Assembly: GCA_035652535.1 (NCBI GenBank)
Contig: DASRDP010000086.1
Location: forward strand, 1-64,000
Reading direction: 5' to 3'
Source of the DNA: Chloroflexota bacterium
GTDB lineage: Bacteria > Chloroflexota > UBA6077 > SHYK01
Length of the DNA: 64,000 bases
Positions 58,012 through 61,175 of the stretch are shown here, piece by piece. The notes beneath the pieces were generated by a model. The model was not told the DNA's origin, made no database searches, and saw only the letters and a program-made list of their open reading frames with translations. Each line of letters begins with the position of its first letter. Position 1 is the stretch's first letter. Made by a program: the position numbers and the translations under genes.

Positions 58012-58410
58012 ATGTCGATTCCTGGAGATAAAGCCATTCAACTTGTCCAGGCCGCGCACGCTCAGGCGGCGAAACTCAACATCGCCGTGACGGCGGTGGT
58101 GGTCGACGAAGGCGGGCGCATGGTAGCGCTAGGTCGAATGGACCGCGCGCGGCCAGTCACCGTGGACGTGGCCATGAACAAGGCGTATACGGCCGCGAGC
58201 TTTCAGCAGCCCACCGGAGAGTTGAGCGGCATTGCAGGGCAGACGTGGTTCCAGAGCCTCGTGGTCTCCAGCAACGGGCGAATCATGGCGGGCAGCGGAG
58301 CCGTGCCCATTGTGGAGGGGGGCAACATCGTGGGAGCCGTCGCGGTGGCTGGGGGCACGGAGGATCAGGATCAGAGCTGCGCCGAGGCCGCTCTCGCAGC
58401 ATACGCGTGA
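58012..58410 (+). CDS. GlcG/HbpS (DUF336)-family protein
   Basis: A 132-residue protein of the GlcG/HbpS family, the same fold as the C-terminal domain of PduO, members of which bind heme or corrinoid. Typical are VVDEGGRMVALGRMDRARP, KAYTAASFQQPT, GSGAVPIVEGGNIVGAVAVAGG (in parts) and the closing DQSCAEAAL. No signal peptide. It stands 134 bases before the RdhA-like gene on the same strand and shares the domain with the fourth gene of that operon. A role in holding or delivering the corrinoid or heme is inferred. Confidence 0.88.
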   Translation: MSIPGDKAIQLVQAAHAQAAKLNIAVTAVVVDEGGRMVALGRMDRARPVTVDVAMNKAYTAASFQQPTGELSGIAGQTWFQSLVVSSNGRIMAGSGAVPIVEGGNIVGAVAVAGGTEDQDQSCAEAALAAYA

Positions 58411-58470
58411 TTTTCTGGGTGTGTTGGGGGCCGCGCTCCATTGACCAAAACAGATGCGAATCAACGCGAT

Positions 58471-58494
58471 TTGTCGTATAAGAAGCCGCATAAT
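58471..58494 (+). promoter_or_regulatory. Weak promoter-like site before the RdhA-like gene
   Basis: CATAAT (58489-58494) with TTGTCG (58471) too close for a standard -35. The 134-base gap shows no evident cobalamin riboswitch box. Candidate only. Confidence 0.2.
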
Positions 58495-58544
58495 AGAGTT
58501 CGAGCGATGAAGAACGAGCACGTCCGGCCGAAAGGGGTGTGACC

Positions 58545-59927
58545 ATGGCAGTTGCGGTGGAGAAGGCGACGACACCGGCGGCACAGCCGGACGAAGCGCG
58601 GCGCCCGGACGCGCGCCCCGACATTCCGCCTCCGCCAAGCCTTGGACGATCCGTCCGCTACGTCGGGCCCGTCCAGAACGTGGACATGAACCAGTCCCCC
58701 CACCCGATGAACCAGCGCGGGGAGCTGGGCAAAGCCCTCTTTAATTACCAGCACAACACGGTCTCCAAAGATCCCCTCACCCGCGTCTCCGCGCCCAACC
58801 ACTTCAACGACAAGCGGAACTTCATCGCGACGGTCGTGAACCAGGCCTCGAAGGGAACCGTCAATCCCAAGCGCGTACCGGTCGACGATCCCGAAGCGAT
58901 GACCCGCCACATCAAAGCGGTCGCGCACTACATGGGCGCGGACTTCGTGACCATCGCCAAGGCACACCCGAACATGATGTACGCGGGCAACCGCTACGTT
59001 CAGGACGGCACGGCCGCCGACCAATATGAGCAGGACACACCCGCTGATCTCGTGCGCAAGTTCCCGTATCTCATCGTCGCGACGACGGCGTGGGATTACG
59101 ACAAGCTTCAGGCCCACCGCCACCACATCGGGGACGCCGCGTACCACGTTTCGCAGATCAAGGGAAACATGCTATTGAAGTCCCTGGAGGGGTACATCCG
59201 CGAGCTGGGCTACACGGCCCTGCGCGGCGTCGCGAATCCCCAGGCGGCCGGCATCGCCGGCGGAATGGGGGAGCTGGGACGCAACGGCCTCGTCATCAAC
59301 GAGAAGTTCGGCGCACGCATCCACATGCCGGACCCGATCATGACGGACTTGCCGCTGGTTCCCGGGAAGCCCGCGGACATCGGCGTACCCGATTTCTGCA
59401 CCATTTGTCACAAGTGCGCCGTGACCTGCCCCACCAACAGCATCACCTTCTTCGACCGAGTGCCCGGCGAGGCTCCGAAAGTCGAGCGCGACGCGTCCGG
59501 GTTTGGCGTCTACAACGGTGTCGAGAAGTTCAAGATCAACTGGCTCACGTGCTACAAGCTCCGGCCCTACGTCCATGAGCACTGGAGCAGCTGCCTCACC
59601 TGCGCGGTCATCTGCCCCTTCACCAAGCCGAACACGTGGTGGCGGACGATGACCGTTCAGGCGCTGCACTATTGCCCGATCCCCGCCAGGCCGTTGCTGG
59701 TGCGCACGTTGAAGGCGATCGACGACCGGTTCTGGGGCGTCGTCAGGCAGAAGCGCGTGCGGTGGATGGGATACGACTCCGGTATCAAGCCGGGCGAGCA
59801 GGCGTGCACCGTGGCCGGCTGCACGGCCGACCACGAGGCGGGCCACTCCACTTCCGTCGACAGCGAAATCGGATACTACGCGCCGTTGAAGGAAAACACG
59901 AATCGCTTCGTCAAGCGAGGCTCGTGA
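58545..59927 (+). CDS. Reductive dehalogenase-like (RdhA-like) corrinoid iron-sulfur protein, no Tat signal
   Basis: A 460-residue protein of the RdhA/QueG superfamily. The corrinoid-binding core ends in ELGYTALRGV, GGMGELGRNGLVINEKFGARI (in parts) and IMTDLPLVPG. It is followed by two [4Fe-4S] sites: C285-x2-C288-x2-C291-x3-C295-P, and C336 with C350-x2-C353-x3-C357-P. These match respiratory RdhA in order and spacing. The Tat leader (RRxFxK) is absent, the N-terminus is Pro/Ala-rich, and no RdhB membrane anchor is near. A soluble, non-respiratory enzyme is likely. The ATG at 58545 follows AAAGGGG. Substrate and dehalogenation activity are unproven. Confidence 0.85.
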   Translation: MAVAVEKATTPAAQPDEARRPDARPDIPPPPSLGRSVRYVGPVQNVDMNQSPHPMNQRGELGKALFNYQHNTVSKDPLTRVSAPNHFNDKRNFIATVVNQASKGTVNPKRVPVDDPEAMTRHIKAVAHYMGADFVTIAKAHPNMMYAGNRYVQDGTAADQYEQDTPADLVRKFPYLIVATTAWDYDKLQAHRHHIGDAAYHVSQIKGNMLLKSLEGYIRELGYTALRGVANPQAAGIAGGMGELGRNGLVINEKFGARIHMPDPIMTDLPLVPGKPADIGVPDFCTICHKCAVTCPTNSITFFDRVPGEAPKVERDASGFGVYNGVEKFKINWLTCYKLRPYVHEHWSSCLTCAVICPFTKPNTWWRTMTVQALHYCPIPARPLLVRTLKAIDDRFWGVVRQKRVRWMGYDSGIKPGEQACTVAGCTADHEAGHSTSVDSEIGYYAPLKENTNRFVKRGS

Positions 59928-59931
59928 CGGG

Positions 59932-60507
59932 ATGCGGCTCGGCCCCCTGACGCTTCCCTGGCGCCGCAATCCGCACGCGAACGATCCATACTGGGAGCAC
60001 TTCGTCAATACTCCCTTTCACGACCTCGCGAACTCGGTGCCCGAGCTGTTGAGAAACGCGCCGGAAGGTGTTGTCTTCCCGGCCAAAGCCGAGCTGCACA
60101 CCCCCGCGATCACGTCCGACCATCTGAAACAGCTCGCCACGTACCTTGGAGCCTGCATGACGGGCATCGCGCGGCTCGAACCTCAGCCGGTCGATGAAGG
60201 TGGCCCGTACCCGTACGCGGTCCTTTGCGCGGTCACGGCCGATTACGATCCGCGAACGGCGCCAGGCCTCGGCGGGCAGGTGCCCGTGCAGAACGCGCTC
60301 TTCGTCACCTTCGTGCTCAGCGCCTGGATGCGCGAGCTGGGGTATCGCGCCACTGCCGTCGAGGACCCCGACGCGGTCAACCTCGCCGTCAAGGCCGGGA
60401 TGGGAAGGCGCACCGCGGACGGAAGGCTCGAGACAGCCAAATACGGCACCGGCGTTCACATCGAGAAGATCATTCGAACTGACCTGCCGCTCGCGGCGGA
60501 CGGCTAG
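59932..60507 (+). CDS. Second RdhA-like corrinoid domain lacking the iron-sulfur part
   Basis: A 191-residue protein starting four bases after the RdhA-like gene. The end resembles the RdhA corrinoid core: AWMRELGYRATAV, NLAVKAGMGRR, KYGTGVHIEKIIRTDLPL. In RdhA the ferredoxin-like cluster domain follows TDLPL directly; here the protein stops and the next gene, 11 bases on, supplies a ferredoxin. The N-terminus (PWRRNPHANDPYWEHFVNTPFHD, in parts) is not familiar. It could be the corrinoid half of a split RdhA, a partner subunit of the gene before it, or a truncated copy; the tight operon spacing favours a functional gene. Confidence 0.7.
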   Translation: MRLGPLTLPWRRNPHANDPYWEHFVNTPFHDLANSVPELLRNAPEGVVFPAKAELHTPAITSDHLKQLATYLGACMTGIARLEPQPVDEGGPYPYAVLCAVTADYDPRTAPGLGGQVPVQNALFVTFVLSAWMRELGYRATAVEDPDAVNLAVKAGMGRRTADGRLETAKYGTGVHIEKIIRTDLPLAADG

Positions 60508-60518
60508 AGAGGAACGCC

Positions 60519-61175
60519 TTGTCCTACGTCATCACGGATCTCTGCACCCTTGACGGCTCATGCGTCGAGGTATGCCCCGTCGCCTGCATCCACACGAAGC
60601 CGGGCGCGCCCCAGTACTACATCGATCCGGACGTCTGCATCGAGTGCGAGCAGTGCGAGATCGTCTGTCCGGTCGACGCCATCTTCCTGGACTGGAAGCT
60701 GCCGGACGAGCGCGAGGCGTCCATCGAAGTGAATGCCAGCTTCTTTCGCAAGAACAAGGCCGTCGTGGGGCCGCCGCCCGCGGAGGCCGCCTGGGAGATG
60801 GTCCGCGGCGCCCAGGCGTACGCGTCGCATCTCGGCATTGCCGTCGCCGTCGCCGTCGTCGACGGCGCTGGCGTGCCCATCGCCGCGGGACGGATGGACG
60901 GCGCGCACCCGCTCATGTCGGAGCTGGCGCTCAACAAGGCTTTCACGGCGACCAGCTTCCACGTCGGCACCCACGAGCTGTCTCCGCAGGTCCGACGGTT
61001 GCGAAGTCTCATCGTGTCGAGCCGGGGCCGTTACGTGGCGTCGGGAGGGGGCATCCCCATCGTCGACGGCATTGCGGTGTTGGGCGCCATCGGCGTGGCC
61101 GGCGGGCGGAGCGAGGAGCAGGACGTCCAGTGCTGCCGGGCCGGGCTCGCGGTCGTCGAGGACGGCGAGCGCTAG
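60519..61175 (+). CDS. 7Fe-type ferredoxin fused to GlcG/HbpS (DUF336) domain
   Basis: A 218-residue fusion. Residues 1-80 are FdxA-like: C9, C15, C19, C23 and C40-x2-C43-x2-C46-x3-C50, fitting a [3Fe-4S]/[4Fe-4S] ferredoxin with its C-terminal extension (KLPDE ... FFRKNK). Residues about 85-215 are a GlcG/HbpS domain (VVDGAGVPIAAGRMDGAHPL, in parts; NKAFTATSFHV; GGGIPIVDGIAVLGAIGVAGG). It starts at a TTG with AGAGGA upstream, 11 bases after the RdhA-like domain gene. The fusion suggests electron transfer to, or sensing of, a bound tetrapyrrole. The stop shares bases with the convergent LLM gene. Confidence 0.88.
   Translation: MSYVITDLCTLDGSCVEVCPVACIHTKPGAPQYYIDPDVCIECEQCEIVCPVDAIFLDWKLPDEREASIEVNASFFRKNKAVVGPPPAEAAWEMVRGAQAYASHLGIAVAVAVVDGAGVPIAAGRMDGAHPLMSELALNKAFTATSFHVGTHELSPQVRRLRSLIVSSRGRYVASGGGIPIVDGIAVLGAIGVAGGRSEEQDVQCCRAGLAVVEDGER

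Follow-up and report, generated by a model that had tools for sequence, protein, structure and literature searches.

What does a protein resembling a reductive dehalogenase do when its gene lies among genes for HbpS/GlcG proteins and a ferredoxin? This question is raised by a cassette of four plus-strand genes at positions 58012–61175 of a 64,000-nucleotide (nt) stretch of Chloroflexota DNA (contig DASRDP010000086.1, positions 1–64,000; hereafter, the window). In order, the genes encode a stand-alone HbpS/GlcG-like protein (P0004), an RdhA-like catalytic subunit (P0001), a free-standing RdhA corrinoid domain (P0002), and a ferredoxin-HbpS fusion (P0003). All four open reading frames (ORFs) were found where a preliminary description of this DNA had placed them, and PF03928, TIGR02486, and the ferredoxin-HbpS fusion bore out the domains it had named. 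The literature searched contained no account of reductive dehalogenases in combination with HbpS or DUF336 proteins. We suggest that the cassette specifies a corrinoid/Fe-S reductase that is soluble and cytoplasmic, is driven by ferredoxin, pairs a catalytic subunit with a pseudo-subunit, and follows a non-canonical chemistry, a reading that we hold to be probable by a narrow measure. Judging from alignments, the most informative feature of the cassette, absent from the preliminary description, is that the catalytic dyad of reductive dehalogenases has been replaced.

A four-gene cassette conserved across deep lineages

Cassette loci were identified with profiles for each part. The preliminary description had made conserved association of these genes one of the points on which its proposal should stand or fall, and the association is there: the full four-gene cassette occurs in the same order at ten loci (the window, L031, L033, L034, L037, L108, L109, L110, L111, and L112), spread over Chloroflexota, Rokubacteria, Binatia, and deltaproteobacterial metagenome-assembled genomes (MAGs). 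Orthologs of P0001 occur in these four groups and in Syntrophobacter-labelled MAGs, with 46–77% identity over the full length. Further cassettes are truncated at contig ends or distributed over more than one contig (L023, L032, L113, L114, and G002), and G404 (L035) carries its fusion and its cassette RdhA on different contigs. Genomes of the window's phylum with 22–26 RdhA matches each, the Dehalococcoides pattern, support placing the window in a Chloroflexota MAG.

We surveyed 643 genomes (400 of Chloroflexota, 95 of the phylum of the Rokubacteria record, and 148 of the class to which the L034 genome belongs). A cassette RdhA was found in 24 and a complete ferredoxin-HbpS fusion in 22, with both in 21 genomes where ~0.8 would be expected if they were independent; the corresponding hypergeometric value of 3e-35 is not a true probability, as the surveyed genomes are related to one another. 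The distance from RdhA to fusion is 674–793 nt in nine surveyed genomes, space enough for the small gene. A lone fusion without a detected RdhA was seen in G667 (L151 4603–6817), at a contig end and downstream of a transposase-like ORF; it may represent either a remnant or a gap in the assembly. We conclude that the cassette is not a chance arrangement because its order is conserved across deep lineages and the fusion occurs almost exclusively with this RdhA. No relative was found on viral contigs, and plasmids yielded distant RdhAs only, which served as references. Within the window copy, the intergenic gaps of 128 nt (P0004–P0001), 4 nt (P0001–P0002), and 11 nt (P0002–P0003) are compatible with a single operon.

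Predicted replacement of the catalytic dyad in P0001

P0001 (58545..59927; 460–462 amino acids) starts at a GTG at 58539 or at the in-frame ATG at 58545; the ATG agrees better with ortholog N-termini, and residues are numbered here from 58539. Its sequence places it in the RdhA superfamily of class III B12 enzymes, by a corrinoid domain homologous to RdhA and QueG and by two 4Fe-4S motifs (C287/C290/C293/C297 and C338/C352/C355/C359), all eight cysteines of which are invariant in 12 orthologs. PceA (4uqu) matched P0001 at 4e-22, and a P0001 profile retrieved PceA and NpRdhA as the best solved relatives (1.8e-37 and 9.6e-35). Hhalign aligned the P0001 family with four catabolic RdhAs at a probability of 99.7%. 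An AlphaFold2 model of P0001 was poor and was used for fold-level matching only, not for active-site geometry; Foldseek matched it to RdhA at the level of fold. A search of the window's own genome with PF13486 (Dehalogenase) gave no match; control genomes were equally silent, so this result was not used.

P0001 has neither of the two hallmarks of a respiratory reductive dehalogenase, as the preliminary description had stated: neither P0001 nor any of 15 orthologs showed a twin-arginine translocation (Tat)-like motif or an N-terminal membrane segment, and the surroundings of the window copy hold no small RdhB-like ORF with multiple transmembrane segments.

In NpRdhA, Tyr426 and Lys488 act as a dyad that donates the proton; the hydroxyl group of the substrate is held in place by Ser422, Lys488, and Arg552 (PMC7565698). 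We read the equivalent columns from three alignments: a profile alignment with PDB chains, a MAFFT alignment of 54 proteins, and hhalign against the four catabolic RdhAs. The three are concordant. On an active-site helix (residues 202–206, Y-H-V-S-Q; 59142..59156), Tyr202 aligns with NpRdhA Ser422 and Gln206 with the catalytic tyrosine (NpRdhA Tyr426, PceA Y246); in hhalign, this tyrosine sits in a gap beside Gln206 and is thus without a tyrosine partner. His262 (59322..59324) takes the column of the catalytic lysine or arginine (NpRdhA Lys488, PceA R305), and Arg342 (59562..59564), invariant among the cassette proteins, aligns with NpRdhA Arg552.

This pattern runs through the cassette RdhAs and a sister clade described below, 26 proteins together. 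First, the catalytic tyrosine column lacks tyrosine in all 26, with glutamine, asparagine, or leucine instead (two cassette orthologs have leucine rather than Gln206). Second, the Ser422 column, one helical turn before the catalytic tyrosine, is a tyrosine in 26 of 26. Third, the Lys/Arg partner column is a histidine in 25, with asparagine in G001. Among the 28 other aligned proteins, 25 retain the catalytic tyrosine, and all except QueG have a lysine or arginine as its partner. Three Dehalococcoides-type RdhAs (L005, L006, and L007) show a cysteine at the catalytic tyrosine column, either an alignment slip or a true variant. On sequence evidence, P0001 appears to lack both dyad residues expected of a functional dehalogenase, and its TIGR02486 (reductive dehalogenase) score of 143.4 bits lies under the curated cut-off of 160.35.

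A clade of its own and a sister group with a separate ferredoxin

In an RdhA tree of 54 rows, the 17 cassette RdhAs are monophyletic (100/100), the sister clade is supported at 100/98, and the two are joined at 100/96. The NpRdhA-like/BhbA catabolic RdhAs form a separate clade, and respiratory RdhAs and QueG also fall outside the cassette and sister groups. The cassette RdhAs are apparently an undescribed clade of the RdhA superfamily. The window RdhA is closer to Rokubacteria proteins (about 78%) than to that of G001 from the same family (61–64%), and its GC content is not deviant; these identities suggest horizontal transfer of the window copy.

In the sister group, six of nine RdhA-like genes (two at L118 and one each at L121, L122, L124, and L125) are directly followed by a gene for a separate 82-amino-acid FdxA, with no HbpS. 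These loci come from G605, G403, G401, and G404, with up to six copies per genome (G605), and the genes lie among solute-binding proteins and once near a EutA homolog. We know of no description of this sister clade. Because it keeps RdhA beside a separate FdxA, the ferredoxin half of P0003 is likely the electron donor in the cassette.

A separately encoded duplicate of the corrinoid domain

P0002 (59932..60507, 191 amino acids) corresponds to an RdhA corrinoid domain that ends just before the Fe-S part and has no Fe-S motif. A P0002 profile matches NpRdhA twice, in its vestigial N-terminal half and in its catalytic half (32.7 and 38.1 bits), and RdhA chains are the best Foldseek matches of a P0002 model (predicted local distance difference test score, pLDDT, of 80). 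P0002 has lost most of the GELGRNG motif, including the glutamate and arginine that are invariant in P0001 orthologs. In a tree of corrinoid domains, P0002-type proteins are sister to the cassette RdhAs (95/87) and not to the vestigial halves of catabolic RdhAs; therefore, the duplication happened within this lineage. On this phylogenetic evidence, P0002 arose by duplication of the RdhA of the same cassette, independently of the vestigial half of catabolic RdhAs. We rejected a frameshifted or truncated RdhA, as P0002 is a separate gene with the same domain-border end in intact cassettes.

The vestigial half of catabolic RdhAs cannot bind cobalamin and imitates the interface of the RdhA dimer (PMC10463259). 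There, the duplicate is fused in the same chain; in the cassette, it is separately encoded. By analogy, P0002 is most likely a cofactor-poor pseudo-protomer that pairs with P0001. The RdhA-like corrinoid domain of the preliminary description keeps its fold assignment, and its role is refined to that of a likely pseudo-subunit.

HbpS domains and a fused seven-iron ferredoxin

P0004 (58012..58410, 132 amino acids) is the first gene product in the ten complete cassettes and belongs to a cassette-specific HbpS subfamily. PF03928 recognized P0004 (9e-30, 103.8 bits) and the HbpS part of P0003 (7e-29, 100.9 bits) well above its cut-off of 25. The nearest PDB entries to P0004 are OrfY (2A2L), NahX (9JTH), EfgA (6BWS), and the PduO C-terminal domain (PduOC; 5CX7), with 44–74 bits to solved members. 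His16 in helix 1 is kept in 13 of 13 aligned stand-alone cassette HbpS proteins and in most fusions, and aligns with the pocket residue Val25. PduOC is an octamer that binds heme through His18 (PMC4923194). Tetrapyrrole binding by the cassette HbpS proteins is possible, by a route other than this described ligand. That HbpS domains deliver, store, or sense the corrinoid, as the preliminary description proposed, we keep as a hypothesis only.

P0003 (60519..61175, 218 amino acids, TTG start) joins an FdxA-type 7Fe ferredoxin (residues 1–81) to an HbpS domain (residues 88–211); its best PDB matches are the 7Fe ferredoxin 1BC6 and the HbpS fold of 2A2L. Cysteines 9, 15, 19, 23, 40, 43, 46, and 50 are all invariant, and by sequence the N-terminal part matches the FdxA pattern for one 3Fe-4S and one 4Fe-4S cluster. 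As a fused domain, it scores below the curated NCBIfam cut-off (NF045480, 74 bits).

Genomic context

Of the oxygenases that the preliminary description had placed around the cassette, VOC and LLM proteins are adjacent to it in the window, which also holds a dienelactone-hydrolase-like protein. Rieske proteins were found on this contig in an island beyond the end of the window, other parts of the window not having been searched for more. That island (L028 2728–14780; contig C86, ~64.2–76.3 kb) holds three Rieske proteins with LigXa-type C-termini, a LigB-type ring-cleavage dioxygenase, two thiamine diphosphate (TPP) enzymes, and a CoxG-like protein, which suggests aromatic breakdown for the window's genome. 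Elsewhere, cassettes neighbor DUF1800/DUF1501 and Fur, xanthine-dehydrogenase-type, NMT1 solute-binding, and MetE-like proteins, and these neighbors do not point to any one substrate. LLM, Rieske, amidohydrolase, NMT1-type, and other solute-binding proteins recur without being constant and may simply be common in such genomes. The window's genome also contains two adjacent CobS-type matches (L139/L140, G000:C135:18011–19440); corrinoid assembly or salvage is therefore likely in this host.

Two further arrangements were seen. At L023 (1703–2662), a tandem HbpS-HbpS protein (319 amino acids) is encoded divergently from the cassette RdhA of G001 and is followed by Rieske and solute-binding proteins whose clusters are also represented downstream of the window. 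At L021 (7019–8883) and L022 (3802–5996), LLM and MetE-like (cobalamin-independent methionine synthase) proteins lie directly upstream of a three-gene cassette.

A soluble corrinoid/Fe-S reductase and its alternatives

We propose that P0001 would be the catalytic subunit, carrying a base-off corrinoid and two 4Fe-4S clusters. P0002 would form a heterodimer with it, occupying the position that a second protomer has in the PceA dimer or that the vestigial N-terminal half has in catabolic RdhAs. Electrons would pass from the FdxA half of P0003 to the P0001 clusters; the HbpS half, probably in a ring with P0004, would hold the ferredoxin close to the enzyme, with a tetrapyrrole or the substrate as a possible ligand. 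Tyr202, His262, or both would donate the proton, in a reaction other than canonical Tyr-Lys/Arg reductive dehalogenation, and Arg342 may have been retained to hold an oxygen-bearing, probably aromatic, substrate.

Several observations weigh against this proposal. The active-site geometry of P0001 is taken from alignments (mean pLDDT of the model, 49), and the scheme as a whole is drawn from sequence analysis. The last three genes occur without the upstream HbpS at four loci (L021, L022, L040, and L041), and P0004 is therefore not essential to the system. The PduOC His18 column is Ile9 in the cassette protein, so a PduOC-type axial histidine, and with it the heme ligand, is not conserved. Finally, no metabolic neighbor sought across the cassette loci is constant, which makes the label "catabolic" weak.

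A serious if minor possibility is that the cassette encodes a genuine reductive dehalogenase, cytoplasmic and acting on halogenated aromatics as NpRdhA and BhbA do, with the relocated Tyr202 and His262 standing in for the Tyr-Lys dyad. Such an enzyme would share the cofactor layout of its closest solved relatives and the arginine that NpRdhA has as Arg552, but both dyad residues are replaced clade-wide, and the K488Q change abolished NpRdhA activity (PMC7565698). The ring-cleavage and Rieske genes on the contig recall BhbA, which likewise lies near a class III extradiol dioxygenase gene; these neighbors differ between genomes, however, and the cassette clade stands apart from catabolic RdhAs in the tree.

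There is a small chance that the cassette encodes a new type of B12 redox machine, in which an RdhA-derived heterodimer of catalytic subunit and pseudo-subunit with a Tyr/His site performs a non-dehalogenation reaction and receives electrons from a ferredoxin whose fused HbpS ring carries heme or corrinoid as a relay or cofactor store.

It is unlikely that the cassette handles the corrinoid itself, whether by reduction, dealkylation, repair, or delivery, along the lines of CblC/CblD or PduO/OrfY; in such a system, HbpS would hold aquo-cobalamin and the RdhA-like protein and FdxA would reduce it. Streptomyces HbpS binds aquo-cobalamin weakly (dissociation constant 34 uM, as cited in PMC4923194), and the HbpS relatives OrfY and PduOC come from B12 systems, although the PduO C-terminal domain is dispensable for adenosyltransferase activity (PMC4923194). 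The P0002 model has weaker Foldseek matches to the B12 trafficking protein 5a4r, CblD, and MMACHC, and the small-subunit gene is single-copy in eight of eight genomes checked. Against this, the sister clade, with its multiple copies among solute-binding proteins, suits catabolism over housekeeping, and no cobalamin genes were recognized beside the cassettes sampled.

We consider it very unlikely that HbpS senses or scavenges a toxic product of a neighboring oxygenase pathway that the RdhA-like part then detoxifies. EfgA, one of the nearest HbpS relatives with a solved structure, senses formaldehyde (PMC8153426), and the LigXa-type Rieske genes downstream are O-demethylase-like and possibly formaldehyde-releasing, but such neighbors are not conserved at other cassettes and the ferredoxin fusion argues for a redox function. 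The chance of a QueG-type tRNA-modifying enzyme or a decayed RdhA relic is negligible: QueG shares the fold and cluster layout, but its model TIGR00276 scores 42 bits against 143 for TIGR02486, QueG is separate in the tree, the tyrosine column of its DYH motif is a glutamine in P0001, and full-length identity across deep lineages argues against decay. Here too the preliminary description, which would have been refuted by a grouping of P0001 with QueG, holds.

Implications for annotation

Proteins of this kind are likely annotated as reductive dehalogenases and may be taken as a sign of organohalide metabolism in Chloroflexota, Rokubacteria, Binatia, and deltaproteobacterial MAGs. The dyad is lost clade-wide, and organohalide inference from these proteins is therefore unsafe: the cassette has a soluble-RdhA-like architecture and is not to be classed as a reductive dehalogenase. 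The loss suggests that uncultured lineages carry out a different B12 reaction. The cassette also shows, for a second time and independently, an RdhA domain that was duplicated and lost its cofactor site, here as a separate gene. By linking HbpS genes to those of B12 redox enzymes, it makes HbpS/GlcG function testable.

Comparison with known systems

The catabolic enzymes NpRdhA (4RAS/6ZXU), BhbA, and JtRdhA share with the cassette a cytoplasmic location without an anchor, a corrinoid domain with two 4Fe-4S clusters, a duplicated cofactor-free corrinoid domain, and an aromatic-catabolism context. They differ in that their duplicate is N-terminally fused and of separate origin, Tyr426 and Lys488 are retained, electrons arrive via a fused reductase or separate redox partners, and there is no HbpS. 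Respiratory PceA (4UQU, 8Q4H), the best sequence match, has the same corrinoid/2x4Fe-4S core, whereas its Tat export, RdhB anchor, homodimer, and Tyr246/Arg305 pair have no counterpart in the cassette. The sister clade shares the Tyr202/His262 pattern and a ferredoxin gene directly downstream, yet no free-standing duplicate was seen there. QueG has the class III B12 fold in common with P0001, but it belongs to a separate lineage by score and tree and has other active-site columns, and its C-terminal HEAT-repeat domain was not recognized in P0001. Meanwhile, HbpS, GlcG, OrfY, PduOC, EfgA, and NahX are of the same HbpS family as the cassette proteins, which differ from them by Ile9 in place of the PduOC His18 and by the fusion to a 7Fe ferredoxin.

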